Below are positions 2,950 through 60,602 of a DNA stretch of 64,000 nucleotides, one piece after another. This stretch comes from Thermophagus xiamenensis (GTDB lineage: Bacteria > Bacteroidota > Bacteroidia > Bacteroidales > Marinilabiliaceae): contig NZ_FONA01000017.1 in assembly GCF_900112795.1 (NCBI RefSeq), forward strand, positions 1 through 64,000, read 5' to 3'. The translations under genes were made by a program, and so were the position numbers. The notes below the pieces were generated by a model. The model saw nothing but the letters and a program-made list of their open reading frames with translations. It did no database searches and had not been told where the DNA came from. Positions within the stretch are counted from its first letter, which is position 1. Every line of letters starts with the position of its first letter.

Positions 2950-3231
2950 ATTACAACATTTTAAGGTTAATAATATGATTAAAATAAATATAAGGTCATT
3001 AACCTTAAAAAACAGTAGAGAGACCAATAAAATTGCAAAAAATTAAGACTCCAAGCTTCTATAGTTTCACACCTTCTCTTAAAATACTTTCCCGAACAAA
3101 AATTAGGGAAACTCCGTTAAAGATTTGAAAGTTATATTTCTTTGCTTAAGTCCCGAGTAAATAAAGAATTTTGAATGATTAATTAAACTAAATTTGCATA
3201 CATTGCCATCTTAATTGATGGCTATTTATTT

Positions 3232-3335
3232 CATAAGTATATAATTTACCTAATTCATTGGCCTGATGGAACTCGCATGGCTTAGTCAAATTTATACATG
3301 CTCTTTGGTAGTAAAAGCTGCCATGCTCGTTTCAT
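3232..3335 (-). repeat. Intergenic modular repeat, copy A (short form)
   Basis: A 104-bp copy of the dispersed element described in the findings. On the plus strand it starts with CAT, contains CATTGGCCTGATGGAACTCG and ends with GCCATGCTCGTTTCAT. The second stem pairs GGAAC-TC-GCATGGC with GCCATGC-TC-GTTTC; the first stem is imperfect here (CATAAG against CTGATG). It lies between the dead HU gene and osmC. The rest of the 2950-3390 gap shows no gene. Confidence 0.8.
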
Positions 3336-12152: not shown

Positions 12153-14177
12153 TCAAAACTTTATTCTTAATTGTAAGGTAATATTTGTCTTTTTATTGGA
12201 ACGAATCAATTGGTTTCCACTTCCAATTTCTTCTTTGTCGAAATAATGCCACCTGGCCCACCGAAACCATAGGTGGACTTTTTTGGTGGCTTTGTAATTT
12301 AGTAACATGAGGTAGCGGCAACCTTTACCGTAATAGGCAGGAACCGAAAGAGAATATAATACATCTGGTTCGTAAACATACAATCGGGAAAGATAATCGG
12401 TTGTATTAAATAGTGCCCACTTCGCTGTAATGGTTAGGTTTTCTTTTTGATTCCACCATTTAAGATCCTGCGATATAAGATTTCCTTTTTCATTTAAAGT
12501 ATCCCCTCTAACCAGTTGCCATTGGAGGAGGGTAGTAAATTGCCAATAAGCAGCAATATTTTGGCGATATTGACATTTTATCAGATTTATTTGTTGTTTA
12601 AAAACGGTATTTTCATTGGTATTAAACTGAGTATTTTGCGGTTTTTCTTTATACCGAAATTTTATATGCCAGTTTCTTTCACTATTACCCGATTGAATAT
12701 TAGTCATCCAATCAAAACCCGAAGAAGGGGCATCAATACCATACTTAACCCAATTAAACTTAAAATAATCGAAATAAGATGACACGGTAAAAAAGGGGAA
12801 CTCCCATGTTATTCCGGTATAGAAGCCGGTTTCTCCGGAAAAACTACTACTCTCTGTCATTGGCCCTGCTAATGGCGCCTGGTAACGAACCGGAATTCTT
12901 CTATAATTCAGCGCCAATGTGAAACCCGAAGCAGCATTCCAACTCATTCCCTGGTATAAGGCAAGATGAGAAAAATCATCAAAAGCAACCTCCCCATATA
13001 AAATACATTTTTGAAATCCTGAAACATAAGATATCCAACTGTTTTGGTTATCTGTTCCACTAAAGTAAAACTTATTGTAAGGTTCAAGGTTGGGGCAAAG
13101 CGCTTTATTAAGGTGATAATTTAGATGCCCCACATCCAGATTTAATTGTTTACCATAGTAGGAGATTCTCCCGCCTGTAATAAATTCTTGAATATTATGA
13201 CGTTGTTCCAGTTCAGTTTTGGTACGATGTAAACCATCCTCTTTGAAACCAGAAAAACAACTATCTGAATTATTTCTTCCATCTCTTCTATTCATCGAAA
13301 AGAAGGGGGATATAAATAGATTATTTCGCCCCATTGTAAGATAAGCCCCATTTAAACCTGAAGACTCAGCCGCCGACAGAGAACAACGAAATCCAGGTCG
13401 CCGATTTCTATTGGTCACGGCGAAGGAACTTTTAAGCTGCGGGAACCCTGTTTGGACAGCCAATCCTTGTCCTGCACTCATCTGATAACGTCCAATACCC
13501 ACCTCTTTTATCCAACAATTTTGAAATTTATAATGCACATATCCAGAAAATAAGTCAAATGTATTTATCCCTTTCGAGAACATTGGTTCTCCTGCATCTT
13601 TTTTTGCTACCATTCCTGCTTCAATACCACGATTACTCTTTATATTCAATCTTTGATAAAAATCCAGGGGACTTCCCAAATAGGGAATATTACCCTCTTC
13701 ATCAGGCTTATAGCCCTCGGCCTTCTCAAGAGTGTAAAAGCCTCTTAAAAAAAGATCACCCCAAATTTTTAAAGATGAGAGCTTTGGTTCAGCAGATCCA
13801 AAATAAATAAGAGGTTCAAGGTTTTTAATGATTTCAATATCTAGTCCTTCAACAGCCTGTAGCTCATAAATGGATAAATAGGGCCCATTTACATATCTTT
13901 TAAATAAAATATTCTCAATTTGCCAATCACTCAAAAAAAAGATCCGCTCCAAATCTTCACGCTCTGCTGTATTAATATTTATAGGATTATTAAATAAATC
14001 AAGAATATCTTCAATCAGTAATATTAAATCATCCTCATCGGCGTCGGCAGCATATTCAACGACTAAATCCTCGGCCCACCGTTGTATTTCTGTAACATTT
14101 TGCGAATAAACCGATGGGTTAAACAGAACAACTAAAAATACCAATGAAATTTCTACAATTGTTAAACTCAATTTCAT
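12153..14177 (-). CDS. Helix-hairpin-helix protein with predicted outer-membrane barrel
   Basis: A secreted protein starting with a signal peptide (MKLSLTIVEISLVFLVVLFN, cleavage near SVYSQ). Residues about 70-125 carry ComEA-like helix-hairpin-helix segments (NPININTAEREDLERIF, ISIYELQAVEGLDIEIIKNL-like). The remaining roughly 500 residues alternate aromatic and polar residues, as expected of beta strands, and end in a strand finishing with F (ITLQLRIKF), typical of outer-membrane barrels. Family members occur in Bacteroidota without a settled function. Upstream is a PorQ-like barrel gene, now separated by two repeat elements whose CAT end is this gene's start codon. A role in surface secretion or envelope assembly is only a guess. 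Confidence 0.7.
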   Translation of the reverse strand: MKLSLTIVEISLVFLVVLFNPSVYSQNVTEIQRWAEDLVVEYAADADEDDLILLIEDILDLFNNPININTAEREDLERIFFLSDWQIENILFKRYVNGPYLSIYELQAVEGLDIEIIKNLEPLIYFGSAEPKLSSLKIWGDLFLRGFYTLEKAEGYKPDEEGNIPYLGSPLDFYQRLNIKSNRGIEAGMVAKKDAGEPMFSKGINTFDLFSGYVHYKFQNCWIKEVGIGRYQMSAGQGLAVQTGFPQLKSSFAVTNRNRRPGFRCSLSAAESSGLNGAYLTMGRNNLFISPFFSMNRRDGRNNSDSCFSGFKEDGLHRTKTELEQRHNIQEFITGGRISYYGKQLNLDVGHLNYHLNKALCPNLEPYNKFYFSGTDNQNSWISYVSGFQKCILYGEVAFDDFSHLALYQGMSWNAASGFTLALNYRRIPVRYQAPLAGPMTESSSFSGETGFYTGITWEFPFFTVSSYFDYFKFNWVKYGIDAPSSGFDWMTNIQSGNSERNWHIKFRYKEKPQNTQFNTNENTVFKQQINLIKCQYRQNIAAYWQFTTLLQWQLVRGDTLNEKGNLISQDLKWWNQKENLTITAKWALFNTTDYLSRLYVYEPDVLYSLSVPAYYGKGCRYLMLLNYKATKKVHLWFRWARWHYFDKEEIGSGNQLIRSNKKTNITLQLRIKF

Positions 14178-14278
14178 TCGTATATAATTTATTTAACTCA
14201 TTGGCCGAATGGAACTCACATGGCTTAATAAAGTTTATACATGTCCTTTTGTGGCAACAGCCGCCATGCTCGTTTCAT
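14175..14278 (-). repeat. Intergenic modular repeat, copy B (short form)
   Basis: Plus-strand CATTCG pairs with CGAATG in the first stem, a compensated version of CATCAG/CTGATG in other copies. The second stem ends in GCCATGCTCGTTTCAT. The first CAT (14175-14177) is the start codon of the downstream minus-strand gene, so the start codon lies inside the stem. The last CAT is shared with copy C. Confidence 0.88.
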
Positions 14279-14531
14279 CCGTATATAATTTACTTACTTC
14301 ATTGATATATTGGTTATTAAAAGTAGTCATTAGTGGTTAGTCGTTAGTTTTTAGTGATTAGTCTATTTATCACGCCAATCTCACCAATCTCTTCAATCCA
14401 TTCAATCTCCTTATCTAACGACCTATTGGGCCTATTAACCTATTGGCCTATTGGCCTTTCCAGCATGCGCACTTCTGCCACTATTATTTTTATACATGTT
14501 CCTGTGGCAAAAGGCGACATGCTCAATTCAT
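14276..14531 (-). repeat. Intergenic modular repeat, copy C (long form)
   Basis: A head-to-tail neighbour of copy B. The left module (CATCCGTATATAATTTAC, then ATTGATATATTG) and the right module (TTTATACATG through GACATGCTCAATTCAT) are separated by a direct-repeat-rich insert made of GTCATTAGTGGTTAGTC-like and CCTATTGGCC-like units. It ends two bases from the stop codon of the next gene. Copies B and C together fill the whole gap 14178-14533. Confidence 0.8.
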
Positions 14532-14533
14532 GC

Positions 14534-15367
14534 CTATTTACCTTTACTGCCACCAAAGCAATAGGTAATCCCAACATTAGTACTTAATCCTAAAGTATCA
14601 TGGTGATTCCCGGCAATCTTAACTTCAATATTATTCCAGCTAATATTTGTTCCAATAGCCAACCGCAGAGGTTTTGCAGAAATGGCACCACAAAATTCAA
14701 CCATTCGGTGAACCTGTGCATTCAGCCCAAAAGCGTAAACCATAGTTGAATAATCTGAGCGTTGTAGAATATCCAACGTCAAGTAGAATTCATCTGACAA
14801 TTTGGAAATACAAGCAACGGCTATTGAGGTTGGTAAAATCTGTTCGTTATATTCATCGGCAAAGCCTTGCCTGGCTGGATTGTTTACGGACACCGCCACA
14901 TCAACATTATGATAAGCTTTATATCGAAAACCCGCATCTACAATCAACGCCCCTACTTTTGAATGATTTTGAATTCGTCTTAGGAAATACTCGAATCTAA
15001 AGCCAAATTGCAGGTCGGGTGAAAGGGCCCGGGCAAACGTTGCACTCAAATTTTGAATGTTATAAAGATTTTCCCCGTATTTTGAATACGCTAATCCTAA
15101 TTTAATTAAGGAAGAGGGGATAATACAAAAAGCCGATTGAGCACTTAATGCTTTCAATTGATAAGCATTATGATATCCAATCCCTGTTACAACCTTATTA
15201 AAATGATAAATACCAGCAGGATTGGAAAATAATGCCCAGGCAGTGGAGTCACTGGCACCGGAAAGTCCCAGAGCCTTGGTGGATGGTGAAGGAAATTCAT
15301 AAGCCTGAGTAAAAGAAGAAACAGTAAGGTTGACCAGAAGTCCAAAAACGTAAAACTTCCTGAACAT
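14534..15367 (-). CDS. PorV/PorQ-like outer-membrane beta-barrel protein
   Basis: A 277-residue exported protein with signal peptide MFRKFYVFGLLVNLTVSSFTQA. The mature N-terminus has the family feature of a short conserved entry (STKALGLSGASDSTAWALFSNPAGI), in which NPAG is the hallmark of the PorV/PorQ/UPF0164 barrels. Later strands end with GLSTNVGITYCFG. Members take part in type IX secretion or act as related outer-membrane barrels, but nothing here proves a T9SS role. It is transcribed toward the HhH/barrel gene. Without the two repeat elements between them, the stop would lie two bases from the next start, which suggests an ancestral operon. Confidence 0.75.
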   Translation of the reverse strand: MFRKFYVFGLLVNLTVSSFTQAYEFPSPSTKALGLSGASDSTAWALFSNPAGIYHFNKVVTGIGYHNAYQLKALSAQSAFCIIPSSLIKLGLAYSKYGENLYNIQNLSATFARALSPDLQFGFRFEYFLRRIQNHSKVGALIVDAGFRYKAYHNVDVAVSVNNPARQGFADEYNEQILPTSIAVACISKLSDEFYLTLDILQRSDYSTMVYAFGLNAQVHRMVEFCGAISAKPLRLAIGTNISWNNIEVKIAGNHHDTLGLSTNVGITYCFGGSKGK

Positions 15368-15507: not shown

Positions 15508-16116
15508 TTAAAAAACGTATAAAAGACTCAGCAAAACTACCCCTAAACCAACAAGATACCCAATAAAAACCTGCAATGGGGTATGAGCCTTTAAATAAAG
15601 ACGAGCAGTGGCTACTATTCCGGATATCAGGACCATTATGGAAAGTAAAAGTAAAAGGTCTATTCCATAACGGAATATTAAGGCCAAAATCAAACCGGTT
15701 ACTCCACCTATGGCAAGAGCATGCAAACTAATCTTCCAGTAGATAGAAATCACTGATGAAAGTATTACTGCAAAAAAGGAAGCCAACAAAAATGATTCGA
15801 TCAAAGATGAAATATTAAGCCGAAAAAGAAGAAAATACCCCAAAAAGAAGAAAATCGCCGAAGACAAAGCAGGGGCTATACGCTCCCGGGAAGTCTCCAT
15901 TTCGAAGCTCTTAATAACTTTGGTTTGTAAAAATAATGGAAGAAGGGATAATGGCAATAAACATGTTGATGCAAAAACTACAATATATACAATTCGCTTT
16001 ATAGAAAAAGGTAACAATGAATGATGAGGTACAACATTCAGAATAAAAAATGTCCCCAAAGAGGGCATTAACATTGGGTGAAATAAGTAGGAGAGTATTT
16101 TACTTAAACGCCTCAT
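15508..16116 (-). CDS. PAP2-like integral membrane protein
   Basis: A 202-residue membrane protein with about six hydrophobic segments. The segments KISLHALAIGGVTG and ATARLYLKAHTPLQVFIGYLVG resemble the histidine motifs of PAP2 phosphatases, which dephosphorylate lipid carriers or phospholipids. The N-terminal KxxxxxxRP motif is not evident, so activity is uncertain. It follows rpoN on the same strand after 487 bases of repeat elements. Four bases separate its start codon from copy D. Confidence 0.6.
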   Translation of the reverse strand: MRRLSKILSYLFHPMLMPSLGTFFILNVVPHHSLLPFSIKRIVYIVVFASTCLLPLSLLPLFLQTKVIKSFEMETSRERIAPALSSAIFFFLGYFLLFRLNISSLIESFLLASFFAVILSSVISIYWKISLHALAIGGVTGLILALIFRYGIDLLLLLSIMVLISGIVATARLYLKAHTPLQVFIGYLVGLGVVLLSLLYVF

Positions 16117-16117
16117 T

Positions 16118-16154
16118 CATTCGTATATAATTTATTTAACTCATTGGCCGAATG
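16118..16154 (-). repeat. Intergenic modular repeat, copy D (left module only)
   Basis: Only the first stem-loop remains (CATTCG pairing with CGAATG, 37 bases). It is followed by unrelated or decayed sequence up to about 16310. It lies directly upstream of the PAP2-like start codon, in the same orientation as the other copies. Confidence 0.7.
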
Positions 16155-16310
16155 GAATTTGCGCGAAATTTAATGGAAAACCATTCATATTGTCGGAACT
16201 CCACTCCATATTGGATTCGTAAAAATAATATAGCCTAATAAAAGAATACTTTTTGACAAATATAACACAGTAAAAAGAGAGACTCAACTACCAAACTAAT
16301 TTCTCACTTT

Positions 16311-16505
16311 CATCAGTATAAATTTTGCTTACCTCATTGATATATTGCTTCTTAAAGGTTGTCATTAGTGGTTAGTCATTAGTTATTTAACACTAACCAC
16401 TTGTTGACTAATGACTAATCACTAAAAACTTATGCTGCCTGTGCACTTCTGCCTTTGTCATTTATACATGTTCTTTTGTGGCAAAAGTCGCCATGCTCGT
16501 TTCAT
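16311..16505 (-). repeat. Intergenic modular repeat, copy E (long form)
   Basis: Begins CATCAGTATAAATTTTGC and continues ATTGATATATTG. Its insert contains the 10-base inverted repeat AGTGGTTAGT and ACTAACCACT plus further GACTAATGACTAATC units and CTGCC-rich text. The right module ends GCCATGCTCGTTTCAT, whose CAT is shared with copy F. Confidence 0.85.
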
Positions 16506-16607
16506 CCGTATAAAATTTATCTAAGTTATTGGCCGGATGGAACTCGCATGACTTAAATTTATACATGTTCTTATTGTGACAAATCTTCTTGGTCATGCTC
16601 GTTTCAT
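16503..16607 (-). repeat. Intergenic modular repeat, copy F (short form)
   Basis: The first stem is CATCCG/CGGATG and the second GCATGAC/GTCATGC; both are compensated relative to other copies. The right end overlaps the rpoN stop codon: the TGA at 16604-16606 is formed by the element terminus (ATGAAACGAG in the rpoN sense). Confidence 0.88.
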
Positions 16608-18055
16608 TGCAATTCTTTTCTGAGGCGAGCCACAGGAATGTTCAATTGTTCCCGGTATTTAGCGACCGTGCGACGTGCAATGTTGTAAGATTTTTCTTGC
16701 AATATTTTAGCCAGCTTGTCGTCAGTAAGGGGTTTTCTTTTGTCCTCATTTTCTATACAATCCTGAAGAATTCGTTTAATTTCACGGGTAGATACCTCCT
16801 CACCGGAATCAGTTTGCAGGCCTTCAGAAAAGAAAAATTTAAGCGGGAAAATACCAAAATGTGTTTGAATATATTTACTGTTCGAAACCCTGGATACTGT
16901 TGAGATATCAAGATTGGTTCTGTCAGCAATATCTTTCAGTATCATTGGTTTTAGTTTTGTTTCATCCCCTTCAAGGAAATATTCATATTGATAATCCACA
17001 ATGGCCTGCATAACGGTCATTAATGTTTGCTGACGCTGTTTTATGGCATCGATAAACCATTTAGCAGAATCCAGCTTTTGTTTGACAAACATCAATGCCT
17101 CTTTTTGTTCCTTGCTTTGATTCTTTTTATTGGCCTGATAATCCTCAAACATTTCGGAATAAGTATGGCTTATTCTGAGCTCAGGAACATTCCGATTGTT
17201 AAGAGAAAGCTTTGGTTTCCCATCTTCAATATCAAGAATAAAATCGGGGATTATGTGTTGTATAGTTTTGGTAACCGGATTACTATATGAACTCCCGGGT
17301 TTTGGGTTAAGCTTCAAAATTTCATCAAGAATAGCCTTTAGTTCACCCGTTTCCAGGTGCATTCTTTTTTCAATCTTATCATAATGCTTCCGGGTAAACT
17401 CCTCAAAATGGTGCTTTATCAGATGAAACGCTTTTTGTATAAGCGGATCATTCAAATCTTTTCTCTTAAGCTGAAGCATTAAACACTCTCGTAAATCACG
17501 GGCACCTACTCCAGGGGGGTCAAAATCCTGTACTATTTCGAGAACTTCTAGTGCCTCTACCTCCTCAATTTCAACGTTCTGAGAAAAGGCAATATCATCA
17601 ATGATTTCATCGATTTCTCTTCGTAAATATCCGTCCTCATCAATGTTGCCAATGATGTATTCAGCAATCAAAGCCTGGCGCTCACTTAGAATACGTAAAC
17701 CCATTTGAGAGATGAGGTGCTCATGAAAGGTCGTTCCCGAAGAAAAAGGAACATCCTCTTGCTTATCATCTTTTGAAAAGTTACGGGCACTTAATTTATA
17801 GGCGGGAATGTCTTCATTTTGAATATACTCATCAATAGACATTTCATCTTTTTCATTGTCGTTTTCAGCAACCGGTTCCTCTTCTTCTTCAGAATCACGA
17901 GATTCCCCTTCCAATTCGAGCACGGGATTTTTTTCCAACTCTTCCTTTATGCGTTGCTCAAGTTGGGTAGTAGGAATCTCCAAAAGCTTAATAACCTGTA
18001 TCTGAAGAGGAGATAATTTCTGTAATAGTTTTTGCTGTAAACTCTGTTTTAACAT
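16604..18055 (-). CDS. rpoN: RNA polymerase sigma-54 factor RpoN
   Basis: The alternative sigma factor that recognises -24/-12 promoters and needs an AAA+ activator. Region I is Gln/Leu-rich (MLKQSLQQKLLQKLSPLQIQ) and is followed by ELEKNPVLE and an acidic linker. The core-binding domain contains LREIDEIIDDIAF-like text, and a helix-turn-helix region precedes the C-terminal RpoN box ARRTVAKYRE, 15 residues from the end. The 483 residues are normal. Its stop codon falls in repeat copy F. No activator gene is in the window. Confidence 0.97.
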   Translation of the reverse strand: MLKQSLQQKLLQKLSPLQIQVIKLLEIPTTQLEQRIKEELEKNPVLELEGESRDSEEEEEPVAENDNEKDEMSIDEYIQNEDIPAYKLSARNFSKDDKQEDVPFSSGTTFHEHLISQMGLRILSERQALIAEYIIGNIDEDGYLRREIDEIIDDIAFSQNVEIEEVEALEVLEIVQDFDPPGVGARDLRECLMLQLKRKDLNDPLIQKAFHLIKHHFEEFTRKHYDKIEKRMHLETGELKAILDEILKLNPKPGSSYSNPVTKTIQHIIPDFILDIEDGKPKLSLNNRNVPELRISHTYSEMFEDYQANKKNQSKEQKEALMFVKQKLDSAKWFIDAIKQRQQTLMTVMQAIVDYQYEYFLEGDETKLKPMILKDIADRTNLDISTVSRVSNSKYIQTHFGIFPLKFFFSEGLQTDSGEEVSTREIKRILQDCIENEDKRKPLTDDKLAKILQEKSYNIARRTVAKYREQLNIPVARLRKELQ

Positions 18056-31250: not shown

Positions 31251-31356
31251 TCATCAGTATAAAATTTATCTAATTCATTGGTCTGATGGAACTCGCATGA
31301 CTTAAAGTTTATACATGTTCTTATTGTGACAAGCCATTTTAGCCATGCTCGTTTCA
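31251..31356 (-). repeat. Intergenic modular repeat, copy G (short form)
   Basis: The first stem is CATCAG/CTGATG and the second GGAAC-TC-GCATG with CATGC-TC-GTTTC. It lies between the leftward HAD gene and the rightward tRNA-Ile2. In 31184-31719 I see only this element and the tRNA promoter. Confidence 0.88.
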
Positions 31357-31653
31357 TTAAAAAACTAGATTATCCTGCCCCAATATTCCTGAATTGGTTT
31401 ACATCAGAGTATGCAAATGTAAAGAATTATTCGTTTTAAAATTTTATTCACCCATTCCCTGAACGATAATTTTATGTTATTAATTAGATTTAACCCAATG
31501 ATTTAGGTAAGGTTCGTTTATATTTAGCTCTATTGTAAAAGTTTTAATTCTTTTTAAAAACATAAAATATCTATAACCACCCAAAATACAACATGATAAG
31601 ATATCAGAGATAAATTTATTCATAATTTAATACCAACTAATGGTAAAATGAAG

Positions 31654-31719: not shown

Positions 31720-31793
31720 GGGCCCATAGCTCAGTTGGTTAGAGCACCTGACTCATAATCAGGGAGTCGCAGGTTCAAGCCCTGCTGGGCCCA
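31720..31793 (+). tRNA. tRNA-Ile2 (CAU anticodon, lysidine-modified)
   Basis: Acceptor arms GGGCCCA and TGGGCCC with discriminator A; the D arm has GCTCAGTTGG. The anticodon stem CCTGA/TCAGG encloses loop CTCATAA, anticodon CAT. The GACTCATAATC core is characteristic of the tRNA-Ile that TilS converts to read AUA rather than of a Met tRNA. CCA is not encoded. This identity is by family resemblance; an elongator Met tRNA is the alternative. Confidence 0.85.
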
Positions 31794-31797
31794 CAAA

Positions 31798-31841
31798 AAC
31801 GTCACTTACATTTTTATAGTTGTAAGTGGCGTTTTTTTTTT
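31798..31841 (+). terminator. Terminator after tRNA-Ile2
   Basis: ACGTCACTTAC pairs with GTAAGTGGCGT (one wobble) and is followed by a run of ten T. It starts five bases after the tRNA. Confidence 0.9.
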
Positions 31842-31916
31842 CAACTTAAGCGAAAAATTAATAACATAACAGGCGAATTACTCAATGAAGTCTCTTATTT
31901 ACCCTTCATTTGGACC

Positions 31917-32346
31917 ATATCCTCTAGAGGATTAAGTTTGTCTAAACAGAATAACAAACATTATATCCTCTAGAGGATTAAGTCTGTCTAAACAGAATAA
32001 TAAACTTCATATCCTCTAGAGGATTAAGTCTGCCTAAACAGAATAATAAACTTCATATCCTCTAGAGGATTAAGTCTGTCTAAACAGAATAACAAACTTC
32101 ATATCCTCTAGAGGATTAAGTCTGTCTAAACAGAATAATAAACTTCATATCCTCTAGAGGATTAAGTCTGTCTAAACAGAATAATAAACTTCATATCCTC
32201 TAGAGGATTAAGTCTGCCTAAACAGAATAACAAACTTCATATCCTCTAGAGGATTAAGTCTGTCTAAACAGAATAATAAACTTCATATCCTCTAGAGGAT
32301 TAAGTCTGTCTAAACAGAATAATGAACGTCATATTCTCTAGAGAAT
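31917..32346. repeat. 46-bp tandem repeat array, nine units plus a partial tenth
   Basis: The palindrome CCTCTAGAGG recurs at exact 46-base steps from 31921 to 32289, then TTCTCTAGAGAA at 32335. Each unit also has the hairpin TCTGT-CTAA-ACAGA, weakened to TCTGC or TTTGT in three units. Units 2, 5, 6 and 8 are identical and the rest differ by one to a few bases. The last palindrome carries a matched pair of changes that keeps it self-complementary. The unit length is not a multiple of three, so it is non-coding. Around it, 31842-31916 and 32347-32607 show no gene. Confidence 0.95.
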
Positions 32347-32607
32347 TAAAATTTAATATCGATTTAAACTACTAATATTCATCAATATATGCAGAGCACA
32401 TATATTTATTTCGTAATGTAGCCTTCTCAGGAAACCGGACCGGTTAAAATTAAATAAGATATTAATTTTAAGCAGTCAAAAATCAGTTCTGAAAAAGTCA
32501 ATATTTACAGTGAGTCAAATTGTAAAGAGGAAAAGGGTGTAATTCTGCATTTTATTTACATTAAGAACTTTAAAATTATCACTTAAATTTTCTTTCACAT
32601 AATAAAT

Positions 32608-34614: not shown

Positions 34615-34685
34615 CAGAAATAAAATTTGTCAAACACATAAGCCGAAAGAAACTTGCATAACCTTAATTGTTTTGATGTTACTTT

Positions 34686-34791
34686 CATCAGTATAAAATT
34701 TATCTAACTCATTGGCCTGATGGAACTCGCATGACAAAGAGTTTTATACATTCTCTTTTGTGAAAATCTCTCATTGTCATGCTCGTTTCAT
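34686..34791 (-). repeat. Intergenic modular repeat, copy H (short form)
   Basis: The first stem is CATCAG/CTGATG. The second extends to GCATGACA/TGTCATGC, compensated relative to the GCATGGC/GCCATGC copies. It ends one base before the stop codon (34793-34795) of the CDF transporter gene. Confidence 0.9.
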
Positions 34792-34792
34792 T

Positions 34793-35650
34793 CTATTCCA
34801 CCGGTTCAATATGAATGGTAACCTCTAAGCTGTATTTATCTTCAATAAGGGCTTCATATTCGCTGGCAATGGCATGGGCTTTAGCCAGACTGTAATCGCC
34901 GGGTAATCGGATATGAAACACCAGTTCAGAATGATTTCCATAGTGATGGATTTTGAAATCATGTGGGTCTAAGAACAAGTTATTTCTAATATTTAGTCCA
35001 ATAGATTCAATTTCATCTTTCATTTCCTTTTCAATATTCTCACCCAGCAAAACACTTATAGTATCTTTCATAATTCCATAGGTGGTATAAAAAATCATGA
35101 AAGAGACAAAAATACCCAACACACTGTCCATCCACCAGATTTTCGAACCAATGAAAATGCCAATTAAAATAACCAAACTGGAAATAGCATCCGAACGATG
35201 ATGCCATCCGTCGGCTTTCAATGAATTGGAATGAATATTTTTTCCCACATAAATGGAATACCTGGCCATTGCTTCCTTAACAACAATTGATATAACGGTA
35301 ACCCATATAGCCAATGGCTTAAAATTAAAAGCAGCCTGTTCCTTAAATTTGATAATTGAATCAGCCAGGAAATTAAAACCTACTACGGCTAATAAAATCC
35401 CCACAATTAAGGAAGCAATTAATTCGGCACGCCCGTGTCCATAAGGATGCCGCTGGTCGGCAGGCATATTGGAAAATTTAAGTCCTAGTAACACAGCTAA
35501 AGATGAGACCGAATCAGAAAGGGTATGCCATGCATCGGCAACTAAAGCAACAGAATGAGACACTATTCCTGCCCAGTATTTTATTGCAAATAATCCAATA
35601 TTTAAAACAATAGAGACCCAAGTGACAATAATGCCTTTTTTAAAATTCAT
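34793..35650 (-). CDS. Cation diffusion facilitator family metal transporter
   Basis: Exports divalent metals (Zn, Fe, Cd, Mn or Co) in exchange for protons across the inner membrane. Six membrane segments are predicted. The metal site has D39, H42 and D46 in VADAWHTLSDS and the second pair in DGWHHRSDAISS, and QRHPYGHGRAE is the family loop after the second segment. The C-terminal cytosolic domain ends with LEVTIHIEPVE. The 285 residues are normal. The substrate metal is not predicted. The start codon coincides with the end of repeat copy I. Confidence 0.92.
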   Translation of the reverse strand: MNFKKGIIVTWVSIVLNIGLFAIKYWAGIVSHSVALVADAWHTLSDSVSSLAVLLGLKFSNMPADQRHPYGHGRAELIASLIVGILLAVVGFNFLADSIIKFKEQAAFNFKPLAIWVTVISIVVKEAMARYSIYVGKNIHSNSLKADGWHHRSDAISSLVILIGIFIGSKIWWMDSVLGIFVSFMIFYTTYGIMKDTISVLLGENIEKEMKDEIESIGLNIRNNLFLDPHDFKIHHYGNHSELVFHIRLPGDYSLAKAHAIASEYEALIEDKYSLEVTIHIEPVE

Positions 35651-35842
35651 TAGTATATAATTTATTTAACTCATTGGTATAATGGAAACTAAAATTAGTC
35701 ATTAGTGGTTAGTTCCTTAGTCGTTAGTTAATCAACACTTGTCACTAATGACTATTGACTAATGACTAATGACTTGTTCTTCCTTCTGCCTTTGTCGTTT
35801 ATACATGTCCTATTGTGGCAAAAGCCGCCATGCTCGTTTTAT
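35648..35842 (-). repeat. Intergenic modular repeat, copy I (long form)
   Basis: The first stem is CATTA/TAATG, another compensated version. The long insert has CATTAGTGGTTAGT, ACTAATGACT units and CTTCTGCC, then the right module TTTATACATG to GCCATGCTCGTTTTAT. The left CAT is the start codon of the CDF gene. Confidence 0.85.
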
Positions 35843-36463: not shown

Positions 36464-36664
36464 CATCCTTATAAAATTTACTTACTTTATTGATATATTT
36501 TTTCTTAAAGGTAGTCATTAGTGGTTAGTCGTTAGTCATTAGTTATTTAACACTAACCACTTGTTGACTTATGACTAATCACTTCTTCTGCCTTCTGCCT
36601 GTGCACTTCTGCCTCAGTTTTATACATGTTCTTTTGTGGCAAAAAGTCGCCATGCTCGTTTCAT
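36464..36664 (-). repeat. Intergenic modular repeat, copy K (long form)
   Basis: The left module is CATCCTTATAAAATTTAC. The insert closely matches copy E (GTCATTAGTGGTTAGTC, AACACTAACCACTTGTTGAC, CTTCTGCC repeated). The right module ends GCCATGCTCGTTTCAT, 14 bases from the hemW stop codon. It fills most of the 36377-36678 gap. Confidence 0.88.
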
Positions 36665-58149: not shown

Positions 58150-58306
58150 GCCGAGGGGCAGACGTGCCCAGGCTGAAGGCAGAAGAAGTGATTAGTTATT
58201 AGTAATCAGGTGGTTGGTGTTAAATAACTAATGACTAATGACTTACTACTAATTATTAATTTTAGGAGACAATAGTTCAATGAGTTAAGTAAACTTTATG
58301 CGAATG
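58150..58306 (+). repeat. Intergenic modular repeat, copy L (long form, opposite strand)
   Basis: Read on the minus strand it begins CATTCGCATAAAGTTTAC and CTCATTGAACTATTG, then GTCATTAGTCATTAGTTATT, ACACCAACCACCTG and CTTCTGCC. The right module is missing. It is the only copy in this orientation, and it precedes rightward genes, so it keeps the same relation to transcription as the others. Confidence 0.7.
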
Positions 58307-58335
58307 ATATTGTTTTTCAATTGATTAAAATTGAT

Positions 58336-58662: not shown

Positions 58663-59531
58663 TGGAACTATTGCTTGAAAAATTTAAAGATCAATTTCAT
58701 CAATTGCCTGAATATAATGGTAATTTCGAAATTACCGAATACAGAAGCCCTGAAGTTTTAAAAAAGATTTTTTCTTGTATTGATCTCACTTCATTAAATT
58801 CTACCGACAGTACAGCATCTATTGAGGATTTTTGTAATCGTTTGAATGCTTTTCATCATAAAAATCCGGAAATGCCTTTAGTTAGTGCCATATGTGTTTA
58901 TCCTGTTTTCGCCGGTGTGTTAAAGTCGAGGTTAAATAAGCTCGATGTAAAAAGGGCAGTGGTGGCTGGAGGATTCCCCTCTTCACAAACCTTTCTTGAT
59001 TTGAAAGTCCAGGAAATTAAAAAAGCTTTGGAGTTGGGTGCGAATGAAGTTGATATTGTTTTGTCGGTTGGAGAATTCTTGGAGGGTAACTATTCATTTG
59101 TAGCTGAGGAAATTAAAACCATTAAATCCGTTTTGGAGGGACATCATTTAAAAGTTATATTAGAAACAGGAGCATTAAAAAATAATCAAAATATATGGGA
59201 TGCAGCTATTTTATCTATGGCATCAGGAGCTGATTTTATAAAGACCTCTACAGGGAAACTTAGTCCTGCGGCAACCCCTGAAGCTGTTTGGGTAATGAGT
59301 CATGCAATTAAGATATGGCATAAAGAAACGGGTAAAAAAGTAGGGTTAAAGGCGGCAGGAGGTATTTCTACTACCGAAGATTCATTGCTTTACTATTCCA
59401 TCGTGAAGAATGTGTTGGGCGATGATTGGCTATGTCCCGAACTTTTTAGGATTGGTGCCAGTCGTTTAGCCAATAATCTATTAAGTGATTTGGCTGTATT
59501 GGAAGGGAAGGATTTTCATCAGCCTTTTTAG
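58662..59531 (+). CDS. deoC: Deoxyribose-phosphate aldolase
   Basis: Cleaves 2-deoxyribose-5-phosphate to glyceraldehyde-3-phosphate and acetaldehyde. The Schiff-base lysine lies in GADFIKTSTGKLSPAATPEA, and a second lysine lies in KVGLKAAGGIS. VDIVLSVGEFLEGNY and AVVAGGFPSSQTF are family motifs. The 289 residues are longer than E. coli DeoC, as in other Bacteroidota. It overlaps the convergent polyprenyl synthase gene by four bases. Confidence 0.95.
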   Translation: MELLLEKFKDQFHQLPEYNGNFEITEYRSPEVLKKIFSCIDLTSLNSTDSTASIEDFCNRLNAFHHKNPEMPLVSAICVYPVFAGVLKSRLNKLDVKRAVVAGGFPSSQTFLDLKVQEIKKALELGANEVDIVLSVGEFLEGNYSFVAEEIKTIKSVLEGHHLKVILETGALKNNQNIWDAAILSMASGADFIKTSTGKLSPAATPEAVWVMSHAIKIWHKETGKKVGLKAAGGISTTEDSLLYYSIVKNVLGDDWLCPELFRIGASRLANNLLSDLAVLEGKDFHQPF

Positions 59532-60502
59532 CCTTTCCTGGTTGTTGTAAAAATGACCAGTTCCTTTAATCCTTCGCGTGCGTCACTTTCAGGATAAGTA
59601 TTTAAAATATCGAGGGCTTTATTTCTGTATTCTATCATTTTTTTCCTTGCGTATTCTATGCCTCCTTGCTGTTTTACGAATTCAACAATGGGGGCAATTT
59701 TTTTTTCATTTTTATGATGTCTTTTTATCGTTCTCAAAATTTCCCGCCGTTTCCAATTTGACTGCTTTGATAACACATAAATGAGCGGAAGGGTCATTTT
59801 TTTCTCTTTAAGATCGTTACCGGTCGGTTTTCCGGCAAAATTGGTTTGTTCGTAATCCAACAGGTCATCTCTGATTTGGAACGCTATTCCCAAATTTAAT
59901 CCGAAATCATGCATTTTAGTTGTATTTTCCTTAGGCGCACCTACCGAATGAGCACCGGCGGCCGTGCATGCTGCTATCAGTGTCGCCGTCTTTTTACGTA
60001 TGATTTCGTAGTATATATCTTCAGTAATACTAAGATTTCTTGACTTTTCAATTTGTAATAGCTCGCCTTCACTCATCTCTTTTACTGCGGTAGAGATGAT
60101 CCGTAATATCTCTGTTTGGTTCTCTTCCAATGACTTAATGAGACCCATTGCTAAAAAATAATCGCCAACCAGAACTGCTATCTTGGAACGCCATAAGGCA
60201 TTGATCGAAAAAAAACCTCGTCGCTGATAGGTCTCGTCTACTACATCATCATGAATTAATGTAGCATTATGTAGAAGTTCTATTAATCCTGCTGCGTTAT
60301 AGGTGCCTTTATTTACTGATCCGTTTAATTTTGCGGACAAGAAAACCAACATAGGCCGCATTTGTTTCCCTTTTCGACGGATTAAATAGTTCGTAATAAT
60401 ATTTAGCAACGGAAAATTTGTATCAAAGTTTTTTTTGTAATAGATGCCAAATTCCTTCATTTCCTCCTTTATGGGAGATAATATTTTGGTTGATATTTTC
60501 AT
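59528..60502 (-). CDS. Polyprenyl diphosphate synthase (IspB-like)
   Basis: A trans-prenyl transferase of 324 residues making a long isoprenoid diphosphate, probably for menaquinone. The first aspartate-rich motif is LIHDDVVDETYQRRG and the second is FQIRDDLLDYEQTNFAGKPTGNDLKEKKMTLPLIY. GKQMRPMLVFLSAKLNG near the N-terminus binds substrate. Chain length is not predictable. The start codon is the terminal CAT of repeat copy M. Confidence 0.93.
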   Translation of the reverse strand: MKISTKILSPIKEEMKEFGIYYKKNFDTNFPLLNIITNYLIRRKGKQMRPMLVFLSAKLNGSVNKGTYNAAGLIELLHNATLIHDDVVDETYQRRGFFSINALWRSKIAVLVGDYFLAMGLIKSLEENQTEILRIISTAVKEMSEGELLQIEKSRNLSITEDIYYEIIRKKTATLIAACTAAGAHSVGAPKENTTKMHDFGLNLGIAFQIRDDLLDYEQTNFAGKPTGNDLKEKKMTLPLIYVLSKQSNWKRREILRTIKRHHKNEKKIAPIVEFVKQQGGIEYARKKMIEYRNKALDILNTYPESDAREGLKELVIFTTTRKG

Positions 60503-60602
60503 CGTAAGTAATTTATATAATTCATTGGTTTAATGGAACTCGTATGGCTTAACCAATTTTATACATGCCCTTTTGTTGCATTAGCCGCCATCCTCGCTTT
60601 TT
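60500..60602 (-). repeat. Intergenic modular repeat, copy M (short form, diverged)
   Basis: CATCGTAAGTAATTTAT, TTCATTGGTTTAATGGAACTCG, TTTTATACATGCCCTTTTG and GCCGCCATCCTCGCTTT identify a diverged copy; both stems have mismatches. Its left CAT is the start codon of the prenyl synthase. The rest of the 553-base gap to 61055 shows only a TATCTTTG -7-like box at 60847-60854 without a matching -33 element. Confidence 0.75.

Follow-up and report, generated by a model that had tools for sequence, protein, structure and literature searches.

A two-hairpin repeat family bounded by ATGA in Thermophagus xiamenensis and other Bacteroidia, with filled and empty sites at one locus

Palindrome-associated transposable elements (PATEs) are non-autonomous derivatives of the insertion sequences (IS) IS200/IS605. 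In IS200/IS605 themselves, a guide sequence is complementary to the cleavage site, as set out in PMC6006769 and PMC8266576. Repetitive extragenic palindromes (REPs) and REPINs are, according to PMC8266576 and PMC3733652, short folded repeats of high copy number and mostly intergenic location. For Bacteroidetes, PMC6006769 describes TnpA subclass 2.6 genes, flanked by atypical structures that recur at other places in the genome, and subclass 1.2 genes, generally devoid of IS200 terminal structures. NTGA is given as the target-adjacent motif of IsrB in PMC9581776. Here we describe a repeat family which recalls these systems, found in the first 64,000 nucleotides (forward strand) of contig NZ_FONA01000017.1 of Thermophagus xiamenensis; this whole stretch is called the window below. 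Exact empty sites beside filled ones at a single locus, copies that are identical although unlinked, and versions peculiar to each species support the view that the family is mobile. On balance, it is somewhat probable that we deal with a non-autonomous, ATGA-specific mobile element of two hairpins, probably moved as single-stranded DNA by an enzyme of the HUH type.

Read on the minus strand of the window, the unit has the form ATGA-AACGAGCATGRC...GYCATGCGAGTTCCATNNG...CNNATGA and folds into two hairpins. In full, its layout is ATGA-AAC-GA-GCATGRC-(about 38-40 nt)-GYCATGC-GA-GTT-C-CATNNG-(about 25 nt, AT-rich)-CNNATGA, and its length, counting both ATGAs, is mostly 105-107 nt (range 102-107 in 65 copies). 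ATGA bounds every unit and neighbours in tandem have one ATGA in common, hence a tandem period of mostly 101-103. The initial annotation, drawn up from the bare sequence, had divided the repeat into a left and a right module and had seen tandem copies share a CAT. Both modules exist, but they correspond to hairpins 2 and 1, respectively, on the minus strand; the tandem pairs 14174/14275 and 16310/16502 do overlap, but the CAT is part of TCAT, that is, of the bounding ATGA. The GA/GA mismatches of hairpin 1 are not essential, since some other genomes (L104, L214, L219) have Watson-Crick pairs there. Hairpin 2 joins the internal CATNNG to the terminal CNNATG, and almost every Watson-Crick combination is found at the covarying NN positions. 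Among the 65 copies, the combinations of guide and terminus are TCG/CGA (35 copies), CAG/CTG (12), CCA/CGG (7), CCG/CGG (6), TAG/CTA (4) and CAG/CTT (1).

Conservation of the fold was measured in an alignment of 48 sequences (A2), from which covariance model R1 was built. Standard pairs make up 94.6% of 762 pair cells, 8 of the 16 pairs show changes on both sides, and none of 500 shuffles attained any of five pairing measures. Pairing falls to 18-29% when the partner is shifted by 1-3 columns, a comparison in which the drawn structure is favoured over its slid versions because it comes from the same sequences. An alignment of 74 matches, which was fitted to the model and thus leans towards the structure, contains CG, TA, GC and AT at one of the two NN pairs and TA, CG and AT at the other. 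A CAC guide occurs in 3 of these 74 matches, all with an end codon that begins with G. At L212 and L218, from two genomes, a GTG end is matched by a CAC guide, and L110, also with a CAC guide, ends in GTAA. The idea that GTG-ended copies form a propagating subfamily was dropped: they occur in 2 of 7 genomes, one copy each, so that compensation in place is as likely as propagation. A coding function was rejected as well, since the frame of the left ATG is open in some copies (e.g. MKRAWRLLPQKNMYKFY) and stops after four codons in others, and unit lengths are not all multiples of three.

Comparison of related genomes revealed the element in both states. From the genus of genome G364, 30 genomes were drawn, 17 of which match a 2.2-kb locus of G364; among the matches listed, 15 of the 17 contain element matches and two (G495 and G496) the flanking genes alone. 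At this locus, two tandem copies are present in G364 and one decayed copy in G505 (L185). Five genomes, G500, G494, G496, G495 and G491 (L183, L184, L186, L187 and L198), have an exact empty ATGA site, reading ...AAATAGACCC-ATGAAAAACGC... or a close variant (L198 has ACCCT before ATGA); exact sites of this sort had been named in the initial annotation as the sign of mobility to look for. In the filled site of G364, the left flank is alike up to ATGA, 186 bp (2 x 93) lead from there to the right ATGA, and the gene follows. In the home genome, five identical copies occupy separate, unlinked loci, and 108 distinct sequences were counted among 122 copies. Each genome compared has the same fold in a sequence version of its own. 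The junction between rpoN and a PAP2-like gene, occupied in the window, is free of the element in Marinilabilia (L061, L062, L063, L065, L073); a 37-nt remnant is present in Anaerophaga (L060), and the contig of L059 ends 66 nt into a copy. The RpoN of the window is 87-92% identical (best segment) to full-length Anaerophaga and Marinilabilia matches, which suggests a place in the Marinilabiliaceae.

The family extends well beyond the window. Thirteen copies or fragments had been counted at first; the family stands, but its size is far larger, with at least 150 full-length matches to model R1 in the home genome (best 150 of 3666 first-look candidates scored) and at least 77 by BLAST with one unit (best 40 of 285 candidate places scored). 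Best E-values near 1e-18 exclude chance. The set of 150 is incomplete, because the window copy at 60499-60602 (67 bits) is absent from it although the last rows score 62. BLAST found matches in 18 of 100 drawn genomes, counting the home genome, no second member of the home genus being among them. A profile search, as had been recommended, detected the element at E <= 0.001 in 48 of 395 genomes of the class and 28 of 197 genera, again with the home genome counted, under strict filters and with the best ten candidates per genome scored. Membership of a known RNA family, which would have told against a new repeat, did not emerge: neither the window nor 20 loci from other genomes gave a credible match in Rfam 15. 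Two queries against plasmids, one against phages and one pattern run on viral contigs gave no match at the sensitivities used, and no description of this family was found in the literature at the level of titles and abstract openings, subscription papers lying outside this coverage. Within the 30 genomes of the G364 genus, among the matches listed, a query from L153 matched elements in none of 11 genomes of at most 2.8 Mb and in 14 of 17 genomes of at least 4.0 Mb; completeness differs between these genomes.

Among described systems, the unit works most like a PATE. It shares with IS200/IS605 derivatives subterminal hairpins, a fixed short target, the lack of terminal inverted repeats and complementarity between guide and cleavage site: CATNNG covaries with CNNATG and would guide cleavage, and the filled and empty ATGA sites at one locus attest precise insertion at a fixed short target. 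Subterminal hairpins without terminal inverted repeats, fixed orientation and tetranucleotide, precise joins and a covarying guide together point most to IS200/IS605 chemistry on single-stranded DNA. In contrast to PATEs, the unit has ATGA at both borders and a strong presence at start codons, and no parent IS with the same ends was found, for which reason it cannot be filed among them.

The initial annotation had offered a REP-like element or a miniature inverted-repeat transposable element (MITE) as one of two explanations. Mobility was thereby correctly anticipated, but neither name applies strictly. A classical MITE, moved by a DDE transposase with ATGA as 4-bp target duplication, would leave two ATGAs flanking the insert and a single one in the unoccupied site, as observed; an ATGA borne by the element itself explains this pattern equally well. 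In the 56-copy alignment, however, the ends AACGAGCATG... and ...TATACNN(ATGA) are not inverted copies of each other (likewise AACGAGCATGGC... compared with ...TATACNN), and lacking terminal inverted repeats the unit is no MITE in the strict sense. As ATGA borders almost all copies read on both sides and the internal guide covaries with the right end, we regard a classical MITE as highly improbable. REPs and REPINs of RAYT (TnpA-REP) resemble the unit in being short, folded, abundant and mostly located between genes. The unit, however, has two hairpins in about 100 bp, its 56-copy consensus is bordered by ATGA on either side without a GTAG or CGTC tag at the hairpin foot, and no RAYT flanked by the unit was seen among 30 Y1_Tnp loci or at the RAYT of the home genome; it is therefore not a REP. 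Some ISC/IscB-IsrB (HEARO) elements adjoin the same tetranucleotide, judging from the motif of IsrB, but the unit has no nuclease or omega RNA and no HEARO match in the Rfam comparison. The TnpA subclasses 1.2 and 2.6 are Y1 enzymes of the same phylum, neither of which is tied to the unit.

Two further modes of spread deserve consideration. Integron cassette arrays have folded single-strand sites, tandem runs and short cores, and the unit might in the same manner be recombined, attC-like, as a folded single strand by a site-specific tyrosine recombinase. Its consensus ends nevertheless contain no R'/R'' core (RYYYAAC/GTTRRRY) and its copies are not bound to gene cassettes, which makes this the least probable of the explanations weighed here. 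Spread through RNA would mean that reverse splicing, or else target-primed reverse transcription, takes place at AUGA while the CAT guide pairs with both flanks. This would suit the single guide, able to pair with either flank, and the enrichment at start codons, i.e. in transcribed DNA. On the unit strand of the 74 matches, G-T wobble cells also outnumber A-C cells (32 against 24), but so slight an excess does not single out RNA, and about 100 nt would be very short for a catalytic intron. We consider this route rather unlikely.

Next, we examined the position of the copies relative to genes. In the home genome, 122 of the 150 matches were placed in fetched DNA, the other 28 being excluded from the counts of gene relation, control and pairing; 42 of the 122 precede another element and the remaining 80 terminate a run. 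In 35 of these 80, an open reading frame (ORF) of 80 aa or more starts at the last ATG, compared with 36 of 228 comparable ATGA sites (binomial p 3e-9). The control sites were ATGAs at gene starts or in non-coding DNA within 84 kb of the home genome (the window and L088), elements masked, and were judged by ORFs, not by curated genes. Just one of the 122 copies is located within an ORF, in a count that sees only those ORFs which are complete in the fetched stretch. Outside the home genome, the last ATG starts an ORF of at least 60 aa at 21 of 29 loci, which are top-scoring matches and not a random sample. Genes starting in home-genome copies include those for adenylosuccinate synthetase and a SpoU-type rRNA methylase.

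These start codons, together with the conserved fold, could indicate a cis-regulatory RNA of the host, a leader that governs the translation of many genes by concealing the AUG in hairpin 2; structured RNAs were the second explanation offered initially. The fold is real, but over half of the run-terminal home-genome copies open no long ORF, the ORFs that do begin at terminal ATGs start with unrelated sequences, tandem runs are common, and empty sites exist. Moreover, hairpin 2 is no less well preserved in copies that do not lie at gene starts, being fully paired in 27 of 36 start copies (including one ending in ATAA), 39 of 44 non-start copies and 32 of 42 tandem copies. This favours selection on mobility over gene control, and a regulatory RNA of the host appears very unlikely. 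The excess at start codons may reflect preference of insertion or survival: the coding strand could be single-stranded at transcribed 5' ends, or insertions there could simply survive. By extrapolation, many genes of the class would have their coding frame separated from the leader by a mobile element and their start codon enclosed in a hairpin, with consequences for start-site annotation, expression studies and genome assembly.

Following the explanation by an ATGA-specific element moved as single-stranded DNA, we propose that an element of about 90-120 bp inserts precisely at ATGA in one orientation, leaving ATGA on either side. The most likely mover is an HUH (Y1) transposase, which would act in trans on a folded single strand of given orientation. 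As guide, the internal CAT would have two alternative partners, the left ATG at the base of hairpin 1 (ATG-A-AAC/GTT-C-CAT) and the right ATG in hairpin 2, and would thereby fix both cut sites. An insertion at a start codon would keep an intact frame initiated by ATGA, so that such insertions would survive.

In search of the mover, we found that none of the units read could hold a transposase gene; neither an autonomous version nor a dedicated transposase turned up in the G364 copies, the Y1 loci or the home-genome pairs where we looked. G364 has 35 matches to a left-end and 22 to a right-end pattern (up to 3 mismatches). Of its loci, 23 were read, 22 of them with a left end, comprising left ends without a right-end match nearby and the best copies. 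No autonomous parent was seen there: the right end follows within about 125 bp of the left end at the 22 loci, with two exceptions, L179, where it stands at 174 bp (broken by N), and L177, where it falls outside the pattern and is visible by eye. Between three same-strand neighbour pairs of the home genome (one in part), ORF lists inspected by eye, not by family scans, contained no transposase-like ORF, and the absence of a transposase nearby, reported for the window, was borne out by the ten neighbouring proteins tested. When the element was compared by BLAST with the Y1 loci of 18 genomes, only G028 gave a match longer than 27 nt. Y1 transposases are widespread in the class: PF01797 matches occur in 19 of 21 element-bearing genomes (missing in G170 and G314) and in 28 of 31 of a second set (missing in G491, G504 and G314), two genomes being common to both sets; they are too common to discriminate, and PF01797 presence was abandoned as a test of a Y1 transposase as owner. 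The copies read in G504, which has no Y1 match, have all diverged (different loci agree at 88.7% at best), consistent with loss of the mover.

Several observations weigh against the proposed mechanism and its enzyme. The left ATG can pair with the internal CAT as well, columns 1-3 matching 80-82 in 46-48 of 48 sequences, although covariation offers no proof of this pairing because the columns are nearly invariant. IS200/IS605 have one guide 5' of each hairpin, whereas the presumed guide of the unit lies between its two hairpins and is common to both. The two bases before the left ATGA match the guide in 3 of 30 cases, with 3.3 expected; guiding would accordingly rest on ATG(A) alone, and reading of the target beyond ATG(A) was rejected. 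No enzyme is tied to the element. When 30 Y1_Tnp loci, out of a larger number of Y1 matches, were scanned with the model, clear matches (two copies) appeared only in L132 of G028, a high-copy genome with 552 candidate places; two others were weak (L087, E 0.098; L127, E 1). A Y1 profile of the 150-aa kind (A4, 19 sequences) matched 30 of 48 genomes with the element and 164 of 347 without it (Fisher p 0.064). G314, 100% complete and without a Y1 match, has four copies 88-94% alike and fits loss of the mover less well than G504 does. In the home genome, which has identical copies, the single Y1_Tnp match is a RAYT bordered by different hairpins and no A4-kind (1.2-like) gene was found; such a genome is not easily accommodated unless the gene was lost recently or falls in an assembly gap.

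The hairpins bordering the home RAYT (L087, about 1030-2160; G000:C53 near 226377) are of the GTTGTGGATTTGTAATCCACAAC type and make up a separate REP-like family.

A bolder proposal, possible but doubtful, envisages self-guided mini-elements throughout the class: a single CAT would pair by turns with the ATG on each side, and a folded strand of 100 nt would pick start codons for insertion and afterwards provide the start codon of the gene entered. The mover would be neither a known IS200/IS605 TnpA nor a RAYT, and might act on RNA or on a coding strand opened by transcription. If the guide model is true, sequence-guided insertion at ATGA would be available in a compact natural system, whose missing enzyme makes a concrete target.

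Within the window, a search for direct and inverted repeats and the covariance model together showed that the repeat family is real and that all places listed initially hold repeat sequence (Table 1). Eight covariance-model matches were obtained, six full (67-114 bits) and two weak or partial (50 and 36 bits). Besides the short unit there is a long form, whose ends are similar to those of the short unit and whose middle is filled with TTAGTCA-type repeats. The long forms at 14276, 16311, 35648, 36464 and 58150 are known from direct repeats D5/D8 and inverted repeat I1, not from the covariance model. The copy at 58150 had rightly been called long and opposite in strand; it alone reads on the plus strand. 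Of the copy at 35840, described as decayed, only the first bases were seen, as the tail of direct repeat D3.

Table 1. Repeat units and long forms located in the window
Position	Strand	Feature	Basis and remarks
3231..3335	-	full unit, guide CATCAG with CTTATG (one mismatch)	covariance model
14174..14278	-	full unit, type CATTCG/CGAATG	covariance model; last ATG (ending 14177) is the start codon of the 674-aa ORF 12153-14177
14275..14531	-	long form, tandem to 14174..14278 with one common ATGA	TTAGTCA-type repeats in middle; ends read from sequence
16117..16216	-	weak match, chiefly right module	covariance model, 50.1 bits
16310..16505	-	long form, tandem to 16502..16607 with one common ATGA	direct repeats D5, D8
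16502..16607	-	full unit, type CATCCG/CGGATG	covariance model
31251..31357	-	full unit, type CATCAG/CTGATG	covariance model
34685..34791	-	full unit, type CATCAG/CTGATG	covariance model
35647..35838 (upper end approximate)	-	long form	direct repeats D3, D5; model covers only 35647-35702, 35.6 bits
36461..36613 (ends approximate)	-	long form	direct repeats D5, D8, inverted pair I1
58157..58318 (ends approximate)	+	long form, opposite strand	inverted pair I1, 81%
60499..60602	-	diverged unit	covariance model, 67.1 bits

Several of these copies abut genes closely. The last ATG is the start codon of a cation-efflux ORF (34793-35650) in the long form 35647..35838 and of a polyprenyl synthetase ORF (59528-60502) in the unit 60499..60602. 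The left ATGA of the unit 16502..16607 provides the TGA stop codon of rpoN (ORF 16604-18055), and the left end of the long form 14275..14531 is 2 bp from the stop codon of ORF 14534-15367. The weak match 16117..16216 lies directly upstream of the PAP2-like ORF 15508-16116, whose Pfam score is below the curated cut-off.

TTAGTCA-type heptamer repeats occupy 14324-14362, 16365-16423, 35717-35781, 36525-36583 and 58192-58250, and they also flank an isolated copy in L014. Other variants of the unit were met outside the home window. Many G364 copies (L168, L169, L170, L172, L173, L175, L176) have a CCCGA...TCGGG hairpin module between their halves, as if a second small element had entered between hairpins 1 and 2. 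At two places in G202 (L218 and L225), copies are apparently nested at the centre of a larger palindrome, CCGTTAACYT-ATGA...-AAGCTTAACG. In L058, a shorter related single-hairpin structure (ATGAAACGACCATGATATAAAAATTATGGTCGTT), seen without its first bases, precedes the full unit at 1491-1596. Finally, the window contains a tandem array of a 46-bp unit at 31824-32441, just after a tRNA-Met gene (31720-31794), with about 9-10 copies and 95% matches over 31916-32349.

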